Below are positions 7,458 to 39,759 of a stretch of DNA of 64,000 nt, piece by piece. Within the stretch, counting starts at the first letter, position 1. Each line of letters starts with the position of its first letter. The notes below the pieces were generated by a model. The model was given only the letters and a program-made list of their open reading frames with translations, was not told the DNA's origin and did no database searches. Position numbers and translations under genes: made by a program. The DNA is taken from the NCBI RefSeq assembly GCF_000025885.1, contig NC_014011.1, forward strand, positions 868,001-932,000, read 5' to 3'. This stretch comes from Aminobacterium colombiense DSM 12261 (GTDB taxonomy: Bacteria; Synergistota; Synergistia; Synergistales; Aminobacteriaceae).

Positions 7458-8270
7458 GTGAAAAAGATATTTCTTTTTGGAAACTGGAAAATGAACAACG
7501 GCCTGGAAGAAACGAAAATATTCTTTAAAGATCTCACCGCGCAGATATGTGAGGACGCAGTCATTTGTGACCAGCTGGAAAGAAGTTTTTTAGAGGTTTG
7601 TATTTTCCCACCTTTTACTTCACTGTATGTAGGCGCAGAAATTCTTGCTCAAAACGTTAAAAAAGGGATTTTTCTCGGGGGACAAAATGGCTTTTATGAA
7701 GATAAAGGGGCGTTTACTGGCGAAATTTCACTCCCAATGCTTAAAGAAACGGGATGTAGTCATGTCCTCATTGGCCACAGTGAGCGAAGGCACATAATGG
7801 GTGAAACAGACGACCTTATTCATAAAAAATTGCAGGCGGCTCTCCATCATGGTTTAACACCTGTTCTTTGTTTTGGAGAGACTCTTTCGGAGAGGGAGTC
7901 CGATTTAACCTTTGAAGTAATAGAGCGGCAAATTCTTAAGGCCGTCAATGGCCTTACAAAAGAAGAGATCAAAAAAACAATTTGGGCATACGAACCTGTT
8001 TGGGCCATAGGCACAGGCCGTACAGCCAGCCCTGAAAATGCAGAAGAAGCATGTTCCTATGCCCGCACACTTTTATGTAATTACGGTAATATAGACATTG
8101 AAGGGGAGGGACATCGAGACGTCCATATACTTTATGGCGGCAGTGTAAAAGCAGCAAATGTTGCGAGCCTTCTTGAAGAACCTGATATTGATGGAGCCCT
8201 TATTGGCGGAGCGTCCATTACAGCAGACTCTATGCTTGAAATTATTCACGAATCACTTCATAGAGGATAA
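7458..8270 (+). CDS. tpiA: triosephosphate isomerase
   Basis: Triosephosphate isomerase interconverts dihydroxyacetone phosphate and glyceraldehyde-3-phosphate. FGNWKMN is at the N-terminus with the catalytic Lys, LIGHSERR carries the catalytic His, and YEPVWAIGTG carries the catalytic Glu and flexible loop 6; ILYGGSVKAAN and GALIGGAS bind phosphate. The start is GTG at 7458 after an AAGGAAGGAG ribosome site. At 270 residues it is about 20 longer than usual, with extra sequence after the first strand-helix unit (residues about 20-50). It is the last gene of gap-pgk-tpiA. Confidence 0.96.
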   Translation: MKKIFLFGNWKMNNGLEETKIFFKDLTAQICEDAVICDQLERSFLEVCIFPPFTSLYVGAEILAQNVKKGIFLGGQNGFYEDKGAFTGEISLPMLKETGCSHVLIGHSERRHIMGETDDLIHKKLQAALHHGLTPVLCFGETLSERESDLTFEVIERQILKAVNGLTKEEIKKTIWAYEPVWAIGTGRTASPENAEEACSYARTLLCNYGNIDIEGEGHRDVHILYGGSVKAANVASLLEEPDIDGALIGGASITADSMLEIIHESLHRG

Positions 8271-8308
8271 AAAATAATTCACAAATCTTTTATAAATACG
8301 ATTGGTTA

Positions 8309-8341
8309 ATGTAGGCCCAGAATTTTATTCTGGGCCTACAT
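8309..8341 (+). terminator. 15-bp hairpin after tpiA
   Basis: A perfect stem of about 15 base pairs (8309-8323 with 8327-8341, loop TTT) lies 38 bases after the tpiA stop. A T-containing but interrupted tract (TGTTTCCC) follows. It probably ends the gap-pgk-tpiA transcript and is immediately followed by a second hairpin. Confidence 0.6.
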
Positions 8342-8348
8342 TGTTTCC

Positions 8349-8382
8349 CTCCGGCATGTTTGACCAATCAAACATGCCGGAG
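8349..8382. repeat. perfect 15-bp inverted repeat with 4-base loop
   Basis: Positions 8349-8363 and 8368-8382 are perfect reverse complements separated by CCAA. No T run follows directly on the plus strand and no A run precedes it, so it is not a classic intrinsic terminator for either strand. It may be a backup terminator, a transcript-end stabiliser or a protein-binding palindrome. The remaining sequence up to 8660 is AT-rich without a coding frame; a TTGACA at 8527-8532 has no good -10 partner. Confidence 0.6.
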
Positions 8383-8674
8383 TATAATTCTTTATGTTTG
8401 ATAGATAAAACATTAAGGCGGTGTTTACGTTGCTGCTTTTAAATTCTACATACTTGCCTCAGTGCAATCTCAGGTAGGCTCTACGAATATATAAAAGGAA
8501 TGCGGGTATGTATTCTTCACACAACATTGACATAGTATGAGAAAGAAATTGTGCATTGTCTTCAGAATTAAAAATCTCATATATTATTTATCCTGTAAAC
8601 AATCACAAAATTAACTTTTTGGGCCATCAAATGTGTATGAATGTGAAGAACTTATAGGTTAGGAGGAACATTTT

Positions 8675-8746
8675 ATGCGAGTTGGCATTTTTTATGGAAG
8701 TTTTATTGGTCACATAGAACATTTACGACAGGTCTTGAAGGCATGA
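8675..8746 (+). CDS. 23-residue ORF translationally coupled to feoA, flavodoxin-N-terminus-like
   Basis: A very good ribosome site (TTAGGAGGA at about 8659-8667) precedes an ATG at 8675 that opens a 23-codon frame ending TGA at 8744-8746. Its stop overlaps the feoA start as ATGA, so translation of feoA is probably coupled to it; feoA itself has no separate ribosome site. The peptide begins MRVGIFYGSFIGHIEHL, which resembles the first strand and FMN-phosphate loop of flavodoxins (a YGSxTGNTE-type motif), but most of the loop residues are changed and no further flavodoxin sequence follows. It is either a leader peptide or the remnant of a flavodoxin gene truncated next to feoA. Confidence 0.5.
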   Translation: MRVGIFYGSFIGHIEHLRQVLKA

Positions 8747-8970
8747 TTACTTTGAATGAATTACGGCCTGGCGAGCATGGAGTAATTCGTAAAAACAGAG
8801 CTCGGGGCGTAATAGGGCAACGGTTAATGGATCTCGGTTTTTTCCCAGGAGTGGAAGTGCATGTCATTCGTAACGCACCTCTTGTCGATCCTGTAGAAAT
8901 AAAAGTAGATGGACATCACGTTACTATTCGGCATGAGGAGGCAAGATTTGTGGAGGTAGAGAAGCAATGA
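8743..8970 (+). CDS. feoA: FeoA family ferrous iron transport protein
   Basis: FeoA is a small cytoplasmic SH3-like protein needed for Fe2+ uptake by FeoB. The 75-residue sequence shows the family pattern: an N-terminal LRPGEHGVI strand, GQRLMDLGFFPGVEV, the central core PVEIKVDGHHVTIRHEEA, and a C-terminal beta strand VEVE. It starts within the stop codon of the 23-codon ORF upstream and its own end overlaps feoB by 4 bases, so all three frames are tightly coupled. Confidence 0.93.
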   Translation: MITLNELRPGEHGVIRKNRARGVIGQRLMDLGFFPGVEVHVIRNAPLVDPVEIKVDGHHVTIRHEEARFVEVEKQ

Positions 8971-11495
8971 GTCATGAAAAAATGCATATTGCTTTAGCTG
9001 GCCAGCCAAATTGCGGTAAATCGACAATCTTTAACATGCTTACTGGCGGGCGGCAGTTTGTCGCAAATTATCCAGGCGCAACTGTATCTATAAAAACAGG
9101 TTCATTTACTTGGCAAAACCGGAAAACACTTCTAACTGACTTGCCTGGCACATATAGCCTTTCCTCCTATTCAGAAGAAGAGCGCATTGCAAGGGATTAT
9201 ATTTTAGAACAGACTCCCTCTCTTGTCGTGAATGTTGTCGATGCTTCAAATTTAAAACGGCACCTTTATCTTACGTTTCAGCTTTTAGAAATAGGAGCCC
9301 CGATCCTGATCGCCCTTAATATGGTTGATGTTGCTGAAAAGAGAGGGCTTAAGATTGATGCTGATGCCTTCGCGAAAGCATTGAATATTCCTGTTGTTAC
9401 AACAGTTGGCAATAAGGGGCAAGGTAAAAAAGAGTTAAAAGATAGCATCCTTGAAGCTTCAAGCACAGTGCGAAAACAAGAGAGTAAAGATGTTTTTGAA
9501 GTGGATTACGGAGTTCTTGCTCCCTATCTTGATGACCTTTCATTGAGGCTTGAAGAAGCTATCAGAGAAAGCTTCTTCAAGGTGCCTTTTAGATGGCTGG
9601 CAATAAAGTTGCTTGAAGAAGATGAGGTAGCAAAAAAAATAGTATTAAATAACTGCTCTGATCCCGAAAAAGTGTTGACCTTTGTGGAAAGTGTTGTTGA
9701 GGACTTTGAAAAAAAACACGATGACACTCCAAGAGGATTTATTGCCTTCAGACGACATATTGCTGCCGAAAAAATAGAAAAGAGTTGTGTTATAAGAACG
9801 AAGGAAGTTTCTGTTACATTAACAGACAGAATCGACAGGCTTGTATGCAGCAGAATTTGGGGTCCTCTTATTCTGGCCGGCATTATTTACCTTTTGTATG
9901 AGTTGTCTATTGTACAGGGATATAAACTGACAAACTATATGATACCTTTTCTCGAAGGATTTCGTAATGCTGTAGAGGTATTTCTTCCCACGGGCAGTTT
10001 TTTCCAGGAACCGCTCATACGCATCCTTGTATTAAATGTAATTACGAGTATAAATTCCGTGCTAATTTATATTCCTATTTTCTTAGTGCTTTTTGCGCTG
10101 ATCGCAGTTCTCGAAGACGTGGGGTACATGCCGAGAATGGCTTTTATTCTAGACAAACTTTTTAGACGTTTTGGATTACATGGGCAATCGACTTTGCCTC
10201 TTATCCTGGGTGGCGTTTTTGTAGGCGGATGTGCTGTTCCTGGTGTCATGGCAACTCGTGTTATAGCTGATGAAAAAGCAAGGCTGGCTACAATTCTTGT
10301 TGTACCTCTAATGAATTGTTTGGCCAAGGTTCCCCTCTATACACTGCTTGTCAGTATTTATTTCGCGAAAGAAAAAGCTACAGCCATGTTCTTCATTTCA
10401 ACGATTACTATTATTTTAGCTCTTTCTGTAGCCAAAATTTTAACGTTGACTTTGCTTAAAAACAGACCCAGCTCACCCTTTGTGCTCGAAATGCCGCCTT
10501 ATCATATTCCCACTGTACGTGGTGTTGTTGTGAGATCTGTGGAAAGAACCTGGTTGTTTGTAAAAAAAGTTATCACAATCATTATGATCGTCGCCGTTGT
10601 AGTTTTCTTTTTGACAAATTATCCTTCTCTAAATGAAGAGCGAAAAAGTGACTATAGAAATCGGGCAGAACAGATAAACGTTTCTTTTCTTTCTCGAATT
10701 GAAGGGACGCCCTTTTATGAACAGCTTCGTTCTGAATCAAATATTGTTCGTTATCTTGCTGTTGAAGAGCGCTATAAAAATCAGAAACGGGTACTTTTAA
10801 ATGCCTCTGATGCAAGAAAAGAAAAATTTGAAAAAAAATTTGAAGAACGTTATCCAGATGCCTATCCCTTGTTAAATGCAAAGGGAAAAGGAGGCAAAGC
10901 TTTTAGCAAAGCCTTTAAACAGATGAAACGAGACAGGGCTATTTTATTGATGGAAATGAAAGATGAAACGTTGCATAAGAGTTTTCTGGGCATAACGGGA
11001 AAAGCCTTAGAGCCAATAACACGTTTTGCTGGCTTTAACTGGAAAGTCAACGTAGCTCTTTTAAGTTCCCTGGCGGCAAAAGAGAGCAGTGTTGCTACTC
11101 TTGGGATGCTTTATCAACCGCGAGAGGAAGGACAAACTCTTGAAGAAAGCATGAAAGAGCAAGAAGCAGGATTTACTTCTCTTCATGCCTTGGCGTTAAT
11201 GATTTTTATGGCCATGTATCCGCCATGTATTGCAGCCCTTCTCATGGTTAAAGTTGAAGCTGGTGGGTGGAAATGGGCGTTTATCGCTTTAGGATATCCC
11301 ATCATATTAGGCACTGTTTTGGCAACTATTGTTTACACGGGAGGAATGTTTTTAGGCCTAACAGGGAAACAAGCGATGTTTGTTTTTTATGGGCTGGTTT
11401 TATTGACAGCGTTCCTCTTGGGGAAAATAAAAGGAACAGTTTTTGATGAATATACTGATGAAGGTTTATTGGGGAAGGAGGTGATTGACGCATGA
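8967..11495 (+). CDS. feoB: ferrous iron transporter FeoB
   Basis: FeoB is the inner-membrane Fe2+ transporter with a cytoplasmic G-protein domain. G1 is GQPNCGKS at residues 12-19, then the GATVS switch, DLPG and NMVD motifs, followed by the helical regulatory domain and a polytopic membrane domain with GGCAVPGVMATR and MNCLAKVPLY gates, and LAAKES near the second gate. The 842-residue length exceeds the usual 650-780. The excess is a strongly charged segment at roughly residues 550-680 between membrane helices, about 130 residues where the Escherichia coli protein has about 40. The last four bases overlap the next gene, so the secreted protein downstream belongs to the same operon. Confidence 0.95.
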   Translation: MSHEKMHIALAGQPNCGKSTIFNMLTGGRQFVANYPGATVSIKTGSFTWQNRKTLLTDLPGTYSLSSYSEEERIARDYILEQTPSLVVNVVDASNLKRHLYLTFQLLEIGAPILIALNMVDVAEKRGLKIDADAFAKALNIPVVTTVGNKGQGKKELKDSILEASSTVRKQESKDVFEVDYGVLAPYLDDLSLRLEEAIRESFFKVPFRWLAIKLLEEDEVAKKIVLNNCSDPEKVLTFVESVVEDFEKKHDDTPRGFIAFRRHIAAEKIEKSCVIRTKEVSVTLTDRIDRLVCSRIWGPLILAGIIYLLYELSIVQGYKLTNYMIPFLEGFRNAVEVFLPTGSFFQEPLIRILVLNVITSINSVLIYIPIFLVLFALIAVLEDVGYMPRMAFILDKLFRRFGLHGQSTLPLILGGVFVGGCAVPGVMATRVIADEKARLATILVVPLMNCLAKVPLYTLLVSIYFAKEKATAMFFISTITIILALSVAKILTLTLLKNRPSSPFVLEMPPYHIPTVRGVVVRSVERTWLFVKKVITIIMIVAVVVFFLTNYPSLNEERKSDYRNRAEQINVSFLSRIEGTPFYEQLRSESNIVRYLAVEERYKNQKRVLLNASDARKEKFEKKFEERYPDAYPLLNAKGKGGKAFSKAFKQMKRDRAILLMEMKDETLHKSFLGITGKALEPITRFAGFNWKVNVALLSSLAAKESSVATLGMLYQPREEGQTLEESMKEQEAGFTSLHALALMIFMAMYPPCIAALLMVKVEAGGWKWAFIALGYPIILGTVLATIVYTGGMFLGLTGKQAMFVFYGLVLLTAFLLGKIKGTVFDEYTDEGLLGKEVIDA

Positions 11496-11818
11496 GACGA
11501 AAAATATTAGCAGCTTTAATAATGGCATTGTTTGCGTCGTTTGTAATGAGTACGGGAGCTTTGGCACACACTCCTATGTGCTATTGCTACTTGAATGGAG
11601 ACGGAACAATTACATGTGAAGGCGGGTTTTCCGATGGTTCGTCTGCAACAGGAGTAAAAATGACGGTCCAGGATAGTGATGGAGAAGTTCTTATAGAAGG
11701 AAAAATGGATGAGTTGAGTGAGTTCTGTTTTGAAAAGCCAGACGTTCCTTTTGTTGTAGTTTTTGACGCAGGTCCAGGTCACATTGTTGAAGTAAAAGGT
11801 GAGGATATCACAGACTGA
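11492..11818 (+). CDS. small secreted protein with N-terminal His after signal cleavage
   Basis: This 108-residue protein overlaps feoB by 4 bases and so is cotranslated with iron transport. Residues 1-25 are a signal peptide (basic start, hydrophobic core) ending in ALA; cleavage there would leave a mature protein starting HTPMCYC. The mature part is a single beta-rich domain (GGFSDGSSATGVKMTV, then IEGKMDE) resembling the carboxypeptidase-regulatory-like or CbiL/NikL-type domains found with nickel and cobalt transporters. It carries three Cys (two within the first seven mature residues plus TCEGG) and a further Cys near the C-terminus. A role in periplasmic metal handling for FeoB is inference; I do not recognise a named family with certainty. 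Confidence 0.75.
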   Translation: MRRKILAALIMALFASFVMSTGALAHTPMCYCYLNGDGTITCEGGFSDGSSATGVKMTVQDSDGEVLIEGKMDELSEFCFEKPDVPFVVVFDAGPGHIVEVKGEDITD

Positions 11819-11825
11819 AAAAAGC

Positions 11826-11860
11826 GCTACCAAGGAAACGGCGCTCGTTTCCTTGGTAGC
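11826..11860. repeat. perfect 15-bp inverted repeat after the feo operon
   Basis: Positions 11826-11840 and 11846-11860 are perfect reverse complements with a 5-base loop. It begins 7 bases after the stop of the small secreted protein gene. No T run follows on the plus strand, so termination without a U-tract, mRNA stabilisation or partial readthrough into the DUF4198 gene are all possible. Confidence 0.55.
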
Positions 11861-11946
11861 GGCCACTTGAAAATGAGTAAAACCGTGCATAGAACACCAA
11901 AGATTATATCGTTAATAGTTGTGATTGACAAAGCAAAGGAGAGAAA

Positions 11947-12759
11947 ATGATGATGATAAAGAATGCAACCAAAGCACTTTTAACAGGTATCATGGTTTGT
12001 GTTTTTGCTCTTCCGGCCTTTGCGCACTTTCAAATGGTGTATACTTCCGAGAGTGCCCTTGAAAAAGGCGGGGATATTGATCTTAAACTAGTGTTTACCC
12101 ATCCCTTTGAAGCTGGCCATACTATGAAAATGGAGCAGCCTGAAGCATTTTATGTGGTTCACAAAGAAAAAAAGACAAATTTGCTCAAAGAAACTAAACA
12201 GATTACCTGGACAAGCCTTACTAATAGTGAAAAAGCTTTTGAACGGTCTTACAAGCTTAGAGGTATGGGAGATTTTGTATTTTGTCTCATCCCAGCTCCT
12301 TATTTCGAAGCACAGGAGGATGCCTACATCCAGCAAATGACAAAAGTTGTAGTTAATGTTGCCGGAATTCCTACGGATTGGGATGGAGAAATGGGACTTC
12401 CGGCTGAAATAGTTCCCCTTGACAAACCCTATGCACTTTGGACAGGAAATGTATTTAGAGGTATTGTCAAAAGCGAAGGCAATCCCGTTCCTTTTGCCGA
12501 AATTGAAGTTGAATATTTAAATCATGAACCACTTATGGATAAAAACAGTTTTGCAAAAGAAGCCCATGTAGAAGCTCCACAGGATGCATTTGTTACGATG
12601 ACGATTAAAGCCGATGCAAATGGTTGTTTCACCTTCGGCATTCCTCGTAAAGGCTGGTGGGGATTTGCGGCCCTCGGTGTAGGGCCTAAGAATACACATG
12701 AAGGCAAGGAGTTAAGTCAAGATGCTGTTATCTGGGTTCAGGCCAGAGATATGAAGTAA
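11947..12759 (+). CDS. DUF4198-like periplasmic metal-transport-associated protein
   Basis: The 270-residue protein has a signal peptide ending ALPAFA, so the mature form should begin HFQM. The rest matches the DUF4198 pattern: an N-terminal beta domain with FTHPFEAGHTM and a C-terminal domain with KSEGNPVPFAEIEVEY, ADANGCFTFGIPRKGWWGFAAL. Proteins of this family accompany nickel, cobalt and iron transporters (NikK-like) and are thought to bind metal in the periplasm, partly through the N-terminal histidine. It lies 128 bases after the feo operon behind a hairpin; TTGAAA at 11867 and TAGAAC at 11890 with 17-base spacing could be its own weak promoter. An AAAGGAGAG ribosome site precedes the start. 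Confidence 0.8.
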   Translation: MMMIKNATKALLTGIMVCVFALPAFAHFQMVYTSESALEKGGDIDLKLVFTHPFEAGHTMKMEQPEAFYVVHKEKKTNLLKETKQITWTSLTNSEKAFERSYKLRGMGDFVFCLIPAPYFEAQEDAYIQQMTKVVVNVAGIPTDWDGEMGLPAEIVPLDKPYALWTGNVFRGIVKSEGNPVPFAEIEVEYLNHEPLMDKNSFAKEAHVEAPQDAFVTMTIKADANGCFTFGIPRKGWWGFAALGVGPKNTHEGKELSQDAVIWVQARDMK

Positions 12760-12798
12760 CATAAAGCATAGTTTCAATCTATCCCCTCTATTCCTTCT

Positions 12799-12852
12799 AA
12801 CAACAAGCCGAGCACGAAGAAAAGTGCAATTTTGTGCTTGGCTTGTTGTTTA
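12799..12852 (+). terminator. terminator after the DUF4198 gene
   Basis: A 17-bp stem (12799-12815 with 12836-12852, one G-T wobble) surrounds an internal A/T-rich loop, 40 bases after the stop codon. TTTAAG follows. The rest of the 374-base gap to rsfS (up to 13133) holds only AT-rich sequence with no coding frame, plus the facing terminator of the minus-strand operon. Confidence 0.7.
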
Positions 12853-13037
12853 AGTATAAATAGAGAGAAATAATTGGCAAAAAGGGCCTATTTAGCGAAA
12901 ATGTCAAAAGTTTAAAAAGCGTACCGATTATGACTTTAAAACGACCTTTTACGCAACATAAGATACATTATATGACACTATCTAAAACTACACTCCTTTA
13001 CTTCTCTCCTCATTTAGCTCTTGTTAAAAATAATAAA

Positions 13038-13070
13038 AAAGAGATCCGCAGGTAGTTTACGGATCTCTTT
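13038..13070 (-). terminator. terminator of the nadD-LCP-rsfS operon
   Basis: On the minus strand the stem AAAGAGATCCG (13070-13060) pairs with CGGATCTCTTT (13048-13038) and runs into a T tract at 13040-13035. It lies about 64 bases after the rsfS stop and faces the terminator of the plus-strand DUF4198 gene. Confidence 0.85.
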
Positions 13071-13133
13071 GCTCTTTGAGCTTCAATTTCTACTTATAAT
13101 TCTTTTAAGAAAAAAATTGAGCTTTAAATTTTA

Positions 13134-13493
13134 TTAGTCAAGATATTCGTATGAATAAGAAGGACAATCTCCCCAGACCTTTTCTAAATGATAAAATTCT
13201 CGTCCCTTGCGGCTAAATATATGAATAACAATGTTTCCCGCATCTATCAGGCACCACTGGGTGCTGTTGCGTCCTTCTATAATCGATGACACCCCTTTTT
13301 TGTCGAGTGCTTCTTCTGTCGCGTTTAGCAGGGTTCCCATATGAATATCTGAATTGGCCGTCACGAGTATAAAGGTATCTGATATGGTTGATTTTTCCCC
13401 AAGATCCATCAGGGTAATATCTAGGCCCCTTTTATCGGCCAGAGCGTCAAGTAAAAACATATATTGGTTCACTAACTCCTTTTTATCACTCAT
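13134..13493 (-). CDS. rsfS: ribosomal silencing factor RsfS
   Basis: RsfS (YbeB/Iojap family) binds ribosomal protein L14 and blocks subunit joining in starvation. The 119-residue protein shows DTFILVTANSDIHMGTL, the Iojap core, and the C-terminal pattern STQWCLIDAGNIVIHIFSRKGREFYHLEKVWGD. It is the last gene of nadD-LCP-rsfS, a common arrangement in Firmicutes and relatives. The stop is followed by a T-tract terminator. Confidence 0.95.
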   Translation of the reverse strand: MSDKKELVNQYMFLLDALADKRGLDITLMDLGEKSTISDTFILVTANSDIHMGTLLNATEEALDKKGVSSIIEGRNSTQWCLIDAGNIVIHIFSRKGREFYHLEKVWGDCPSYSYEYLD

Positions 13494-39351: not shown

Positions 39352-39759
39352 TTGGAGAAACTAGTAAGGTTTGGGGTCGCTGTACCAGAGTCATTGCTGG
39401 AAGAGTTTGACCATTGGATAAAAAGGTCAGGAATGCCTAATCGATCAAATGCATTACGGCAACTCATCAGACAGTCTATTTCAAGAAACCGATGGGAAGA
39501 AGGTGCTGGGACAGTTTTTGGAACGCTCACTATTCTTTATGACCATCATTCCCATGATGTTTCTGCAGAGCTGACCAATGTTCAACACGATTTTGGGGAT
39601 GTCATTGTCTGTACATCCCATGTTCATCTTGATCATGCCCATTGCCTCGAGGCCATTGTTTTACGTGGTTCTGCCAAAGAGATTCGGGAATTCGTAAAGG
39701 CTATTTCTTCCATCAAAGGCATTAATACGGCAGATCCTGTTATTACAACGACAGTGTAA
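39352..39759 (+). CDS. nikR: NikR-family nickel-responsive regulator
   Basis: The 135-residue protein has an N-terminal ribbon-helix-helix (VRFGVAVPESLLEEFDHWI, NRSNALRQLIRQSI) and a C-terminal ACT-like metal domain with the nickel ligands in the order His, then HVHLDHAHCLEAIVLRG. NikR represses nickel uptake genes when nickel is bound. The start is TTG 39352 after a GAGGGGG stretch. It stands alone on the plus strand, with TATAAT at 39309-39314 as a possible -10 but no good -35. No nickel transporter is adjacent. Confidence 0.9.
   Translation: MEKLVRFGVAVPESLLEEFDHWIKRSGMPNRSNALRQLIRQSISRNRWEEGAGTVFGTLTILYDHHSHDVSAELTNVQHDFGDVIVCTSHVHLDHAHCLEAIVLRGSAKEIREFVKAISSIKGINTADPVITTTV

Follow-up and report, generated by a model that had tools for sequence, protein, structure and literature searches.

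Gene organization of the feo locus

The stretch of DNA analysed here, referred to as the window, comprises 64,000 nucleotides of Aminobacterium colombiense DSM 12261 (contig NC_014011.1, positions 868,001 to 932,000), whose genome is a single contig of 1,980,592 bp. It contains a feo locus with the gene order feoA-feoB-L-K, where L and K denote genes for two secreted proteins that resemble NikL and NikK of nickel uptake systems. Bacteria import Fe2+ mainly through FeoB, and the route by which Fe2+ crosses the periplasm to reach it is, to our knowledge, poorly understood. L and K are a real and conserved accessory pair of one FeoB lineage that is, as far as the literature was searched, undescribed.

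FeoA and FeoB of the window are ordinary members of their families and the locus differs from a standard feoAB operon in its dedicated secreted pair. FeoB scored 477.7 bits against TIGR00437 (cut-off 315.65), with the G domain, the Gate domains and FeoB_C all present. The feoA and feoB genes overlap, as do feoB and L through the sequence ATGA, and a gap of 128 bp containing a strong hairpin separates L from K. The coordinates that a first-pass annotation had given for the 108-residue protein overlapping feoB and for the DUF4198-like protein were correct by open reading frame (ORF) and Pfam checks. The hairpin may set the level of L relative to that of K. It resembles a terminator on the minus strand only.

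Table 1. Features of the feo locus (window coordinates)
Feature	Position	Strand	Basis or remark
Palindrome GTTTGACCAATCAAAC, putative operator 1 of a tandem pair	8358..8373	.	Overlaps promoter-like site
Sigma-70-like promoter TTGACC-17-TATAAT	8360..8388	+	11/12 positions; consensus match only
Palindrome GTTTGATAGATAAAAC, putative operator 2	8396..8411	.	38 bp from operator 1; tandem spacing kept in congeners G030 and G031
Flavodoxin gene remnant, 23 codons (MRVGIFYGSFIGHI + EHLRQVLKA)	8675..8746	+	N- and C-terminal ends match the gene of G031
feoA	8743..8970	+	Pfam FeoA, 70.4 bits
feoB, 842 aa, KL-associated FeoB clade	8967..11495	+	FeoB_N, Gate, FeoB_C; TIGR00437; tree
L, NikL-like feo-type protein, 108 aa	11492..11818	+	Predicted signal peptide 11492-11566; mature start HTPMCYC
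16-bp hairpin between L and K	11825..11861	.	Perfect; z -3.7; single copy within the window
K, NikK-like DUF4198 feo-type protein, 270 aa	11947..12759	+	Predicted signal peptide 11947-12024; mature start HFQMVYT

Conservation of the predicted N-terminal histidine

The predicted signal peptides of both proteins end in AxA followed by histidine (ALA/HTPM in L and AFA/HFQM in K, the slash marking the predicted cut). Cleavage sites were placed by the -3/-1 rule together with cross-species conservation. After predicted cleavage His1 was found in each of the 99 feo-linked L proteins; three of these deviate slightly at -3/-1, the position of the histidine being unchanged. Among 90 K ORFs, 78 match the AxA/HF pattern and 8 more, judged by eye, have AxA/HF with different residues at positions 3-4. 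His1 is present in all 86 assessable K proteins, the remaining 4 ORFs being in the wrong frame or having the wrong start, so that they could not be judged.

The first-pass annotation had predicted His1 and Met4 in both mature proteins and had named poor conservation of the histidine as a reason for doubt; no such variability was encountered. Position 4 of K is Met in most proteins and Leu, Thr, Val or Ile in the others. The prediction failed for Met4 of L, which is mostly Leu, with Ile in 14 proteins and Met in the window copy and one other only. Judging from these sequences, L and K probably begin with a metal-gripping histidine. In the histidine brace of CopC and lytic polysaccharide monooxygenases, an N-terminal histidine with a free amine serves as a metal ligand; the comparison with L and K is a functional one only, no sequence relationship having been seen.

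L is a divergent relative of NikL

On its profile score L is a divergent relative of NikL that falls below the membership cut-off of the family. The NCBIfam NikL model NF058648 matched it with an E-value of 1.5e-15 and 57.6 bits, under the equivalog cut-off of 100; the NikL encoded elsewhere in the same genome scored 155.9 bits. A Pfam search of L gave no match. Because BLASTP of L directly against the genome's own NikL produced no alignment, the evidence of kinship consists of the family profile, a weak match (E 0.0026) in a genome search of Synergistota proteins and the residues that they have in common. The latter are His1 and His72, the histidine of a GxGH motif, which occurs in all feo-type L proteins.

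In the alignment of feo-type L, H1, C17 and H72 are invariant, and C5 and C7 are conserved in at least 90%. The three cysteines were found in 46-47 of 47 feo-type L proteins vs. 0 of 11 NikL proteins, the 47 rows being a non-redundant set in which Synergistota, where some copies miss a cysteine, are under-represented. The mature feo-type L has 82-94 residues, predicted to form an all-beta sandwich, and has no C-terminal transmembrane anchor, whereas the NikL of this genome is a 202-residue protein that has one. The AlphaFold2 model of L is a seven-strand beta-sandwich with a predicted local distance difference test score (pLDDT) of 96.7. Judging from the strand register, the first hairpin of this model probably has C5 and C17 on adjacent strands. 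Foldseek with the model returned nothing at E <= 0.001, only generic Ig/macroglobulin-like sandwiches, so that the fold does not identify the function of L. A PDB sequence search with L gave weak matches to adhesin-like repeats only.

K belongs to a family of metal-binding proteins

K scored 196.3 bits against Pfam DUF4198 (PF10670; gathering score 34) and is 40% identical to the NikK of the same genome. His26 was conserved in 42 of 42 feo-type K, 10 of 10 NikK and 8 of 8 DUF4198 proteins of a third type; His1 is likewise present in all rows of this alignment, although the rows were trimmed at their His. His32 is found in 39 of 42 feo-type K vs. 2 of 10 NikK, and Met34 is common to both. From the alignment, His1 and the second conserved histidine, His26, are candidate metal ligands of K.

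The AlphaFold2 model of K has a pLDDT of 95.8. Its best Foldseek match was Zcp with bound Zn, Co or Cu (PDB 9mhi-9mho; E about 1e-13, template modelling score 0.6), and the Ni-bound DUF4198 protein 9gcb was matched with an E-value of 2.8e-6. The Zcp of the PDB is taken here, on the name alone, to be the product of the gonococcal zcp gene, and we know of no link between Zcp and FeoB. Although Zcp is the closest in fold, it differs from K in being a Zur-regulated zinc protein, zcp being a zinc- and Zur-regulated transcript of Neisseria gonorrhoeae (PMC13343924). The secreted 9gcb protein, described in 2025 in a study of signal strapping, binds Ni through His1 and a second histidine with a dissociation constant of 18 nM, at an exposed site in a cleft (PMC12537917). 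It resembles K in Pfam family, in the N-terminal and second conserved histidines and in fold, but its gene has TonB and NikR neighbours, and Ni, Zn, Co and Cu were tested with iron unmentioned (PMC12537917). Feo, NikK and NikL are all absent from the main text of that study. DUF4198 genes have been reported to be Fur-regulated in Caulobacter (PMC3751524) and iron-regulated (PMC11870441).

NikK and NikL are periplasmic parts of the NikKMLQO energy-coupling factor system for nickel/cobalt uptake (PMC545781, PMC2667541). A complete nikK-nikM-nikL-nikQ-nikO operon in another part of the genome encodes NikK and NikL proper; the window pair is linked to feoAB only and not to nikM, nikQ or nikO. Given this separate operon, the identity of K with NikK and the profile match of L, the pair is related to components of a nickel importer and is attached to FeoAB. 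The window pair differs from its NikKMLQO counterparts in the feoAB linkage, the anchorless L with C5, C7 and C17 and the presence of H32 in K. The first-pass annotation had noted a resemblance to accessories of nickel/cobalt transporters; this held for NikK and NikL, whereas the likeness to NikM is loose. Orphan NikK and NikL proteins have been reported, with neighbourhoods uninformative as to function (PMC2667541). The feo-linked pair may account for part of these orphans, noted in 2009.

Distribution and co-inheritance with one FeoB clade

A protein search for L was carried out across 188 Synergistota genomes. With the sole exception of L043, the strong matches adjoin feoAB, and the weak matches are mostly in nik-type operons. 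A wider contig scan identified at least 315 relatives, the best 80 of which belong to Synergistota, Desulfobacterota, Nitrospirota, Omnitrophota, Alpha- and Gammaproteobacteria and SAR324; feoAB is adjacent in nearly all of these 80. The survey of feoB neighbourhoods suggested by the first-pass annotation has found the feo-linked pair in at least five bacterial phyla. Many of the relatives are from metagenome bins; isolates include Desulfosarcina widdelii, Desulfatibacillum alkenivorans, Photobacterium marinum, Thiorhodococcus drewsii, Pseudovibrio and Cohaesibacter. The pair is co-directional with feoAB in Synergistota and Desulfobacterota and divergent or upstream in Proteobacteria, and these differing arrangements argue against mere co-transfer as one fixed block.

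In a phylogenetic tree a single clade with support 100 unites the FeoB proteins adjacent to L (33 rows) and separates them from 22 other FeoB proteins, the latter mostly from one phylum, so that wider sampling could alter the clade. L is present in 22 of the 23 Synergistota genomes having a clade FeoB, called at E <= 1e-150 (Fisher 9e-28). In one order of Desulfobacterota, L occurs in 16 of 16 genomes with a clade FeoB vs. 3 of 102 without (Fisher 4e-17); both p-values ignore the relatedness of the genomes.

The neighbours of the pair were tabulated for 98 loci. An ATP-binding cassette (ABC) ATPase, a permease and DUF4857 are found together in about 18-25 of them, an LbtU-type siderophore porin in 15 and an OprB-type porin in 10, the porins being assigned by similarity to one representative. 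A DUF4857 locus is induced by iron starvation in Bacteroides (PMC10434189), and in Geobacter a predicted Fur box precedes an OprB porin gene and feoAB (PMC545781). The porin and ABC-DUF4857 neighbours point to iron.

Promoter region and candidate regulators

The window genome has a single exact copy of the palindrome GTTTGA-N4-TCAAAC, located upstream of feo-KL; the congener G030 has two, upstream of its two feo operons. When up to one mismatch was allowed, tandem palindromes 37-38 bp apart were found before feo-KL in all three Aminobacterium genomes (the window genome, G030 and G031), single ones before a second feoAB operon and one before the DtxR-like gene next to that operon, with a chance background that is not negligible at this threshold (4, 5 and 0 control sites). 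Palindrome sites elsewhere are located at G030:C1:939912, G031:C1:822123 and G000:C1:1269380. The tandem palindrome may serve as the operator of a feo regulon, and the product of the DtxR-like gene next to the second feoAB may be the protein that binds it.

The window genome has one Fur gene and one NikR gene. The latter is located at window positions 39352-39759, far from the nikKMLQO operon with its NikR-type site. The nikK promoter carries a perfect NikR-type site, GTAACAC-N14-GTGTTAC (14/14), whereas no such operator was found upstream of feoA and feo-KL, the best candidate matching 9/14. The possibility of a nickel-regulated feo-KL operon was rejected on the absence of the NikR site.

In G031 an intact flavodoxin-like gene directly precedes feoA (L035:8030-8542). 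The 23-codon remnant at the same place in the window was apparently left by an internal deletion, judging from its matching ends. An Rfam search of positions 8000-13200 gave no match.

Proposed function and alternative explanations

We think it probable, if well short of certain, that L and K are NikL and NikK paralogs recruited as a periplasmic module that captures Fe2+ and hands it to FeoB. Both proteins would be exported, and signal peptidase would expose the N-terminal histidine. The amine and imidazole of His1, together with a second histidine (His72 in L; His26 and the feo-specific His32 in K), would then form a site for a divalent metal, Fe2+ being the likeliest. Capture in the periplasm would be the part of K, after which K, the small L or both would pass the metal to the outer face of FeoB for import. 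The first-pass annotation had suggested a periplasmic metal-delivery module for FeoB; the homology to NikK and NikL, the separate nikKMLQO operon, the co-inheritance with one clade, the iron-type promoter features and the fold of K all favour such a module, with iron as the best-supported substrate. Gene order, co-inheritance, conserved residues, the predicted fold of K and the shared palindrome are observed; that the metal is iron, that FeoB receives it and how K and L share the task are inferred. A more far-reaching proposal is that the pair is a dedicated Fe2+ relay in which extra ligands, Cys in L and His in K, re-tuned the N-terminal-histidine sites for Fe2+. FeoB-KL would then be a transporter class of its own, spread over at least five phyla. 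The proposal is put forward tentatively, with a little less than an even chance of being right.

Several observations weigh against an iron-delivery role. Ni and Zn are the metals bound by the known relatives, and a site built on an N-terminal histidine may take several metals. The cysteines of L are missing or fewer in some Synergistota (L045, L051, L055). A regulator of the DtxR type could respond to Mn instead of Fe, and a scan for Fur boxes upstream of the window feoA found none. Fur-like boxes were convincing in few loci only (L126, L146, L150 and L085), and relative to base-shuffled controls the scan of the loci was weak overall, with a mean z of 0.86 and 0.25 for two Fur consensuses and -0.46 for NikR. 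Moreover, the genome G023 has a clade FeoB, broken-looking and followed by a DtxR-like gene, but no pair, and a few L copies sit apart from a clade FeoB (L043, and those of G208, G306 and G282).

The metal handled by K and L could instead be Ni, Co, Zn or Mn, or the two proteins could keep competing metals buffered at the entrance to FeoB; this FeoB lineage would then transport mixed metals or a metal other than iron. The metals of 9gcb and Zcp would fit, as would the DtxR-like candidate regulator and the fact that in Porphyromonas gingivalis one FeoB paralog is described as transporting manganese (PMC10434189). However, the NikR operator is perfect at nikK and absent from feo-KL, the palindrome is found at the second feoAB as well, a flavodoxin gene precedes feoA in the congener and the porin neighbours are of iron type, which makes this explanation unlikely. 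Alternatively, L may be a redox protein, its Cys5, Cys7 and Cys17 holding iron as Fe2+ or being redox-cycled themselves, with K as the metal carrier. The cysteines are near-invariant and feo-specific, and the probable proximity of C5 and C17 in the predicted first hairpin would suit such a role. It appears quite improbable in view of the Synergistota copies that miss one or more cysteines, the many hosts that are anaerobes, where Fe2+ prevails, and the lack of a thioredoxin-like fold in L.

K and L could also sense periplasmic metal and gate FeoB allosterically instead of carrying metal. Strict co-inheritance with one FeoB clade is equally what a regulatory subunit would show, but the exposed cleft site and tight Ni binding of the DUF4198 relative are carrier-like (PMC12537917), and we give gating very little weight. 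Finally, the pair might lie beside feoAB by ordinary linkage with no functional connection, as the few genomes with L but no adjacent clade FeoB might suggest. This is hardly credible given that adjacency is kept across phyla in three different arrangements and that co-occurrence is so pronounced. Chance adjacency of the pair and feoAB was rejected by the same co-occurrence tests.

The chemistry of the K family is already known; L, the link to Feo and the feo-specific residues are new. In the largely open-access literature searched, no secreted metal-binding partner of FeoB and no description of FeoB paired with DUF4198, NikL or an N-terminal histidine was found. A secreted pair tied strictly to one FeoB lineage is a testable candidate carrier. 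Furthermore, the matched nickel and iron versions, sometimes in one genome, offer a natural experiment on how the preference of a metal site changes.

Variation among related loci

A larger soluble insertion in the FeoB of the KL type was considered as a docking site for the pair. The median distance between two motifs was 192 residues, compared with 87-137 in three other FeoB proteins. This candidate was dropped and is not used as evidence because the FeoB of L105, which has no adjacent L or K, is equally long (195 residues) and just four unlinked FeoB proteins could be measured.

A third secreted DUF4198 protein with an N-terminal histidine (AH[DE]FW or AHHLW) is encoded downstream of K in eight Synergistota loci (L036, L037 and L046-L051), and the copy in L048 matched the Zcp sequence with an E-value of 5e-52. 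L043, on contig 5 of G035, is a second L copy that has no FeoB nearby and adjoins a cluster of the ABC-DUF4857 type. In L154, two L copies flank K-feoAB within one locus, followed by an ABC-DUF4857 cluster. In L114 and L150, K is extended at its C-terminus by about 85 residues, which by eye resemble a peptidoglycan-binding repeat.

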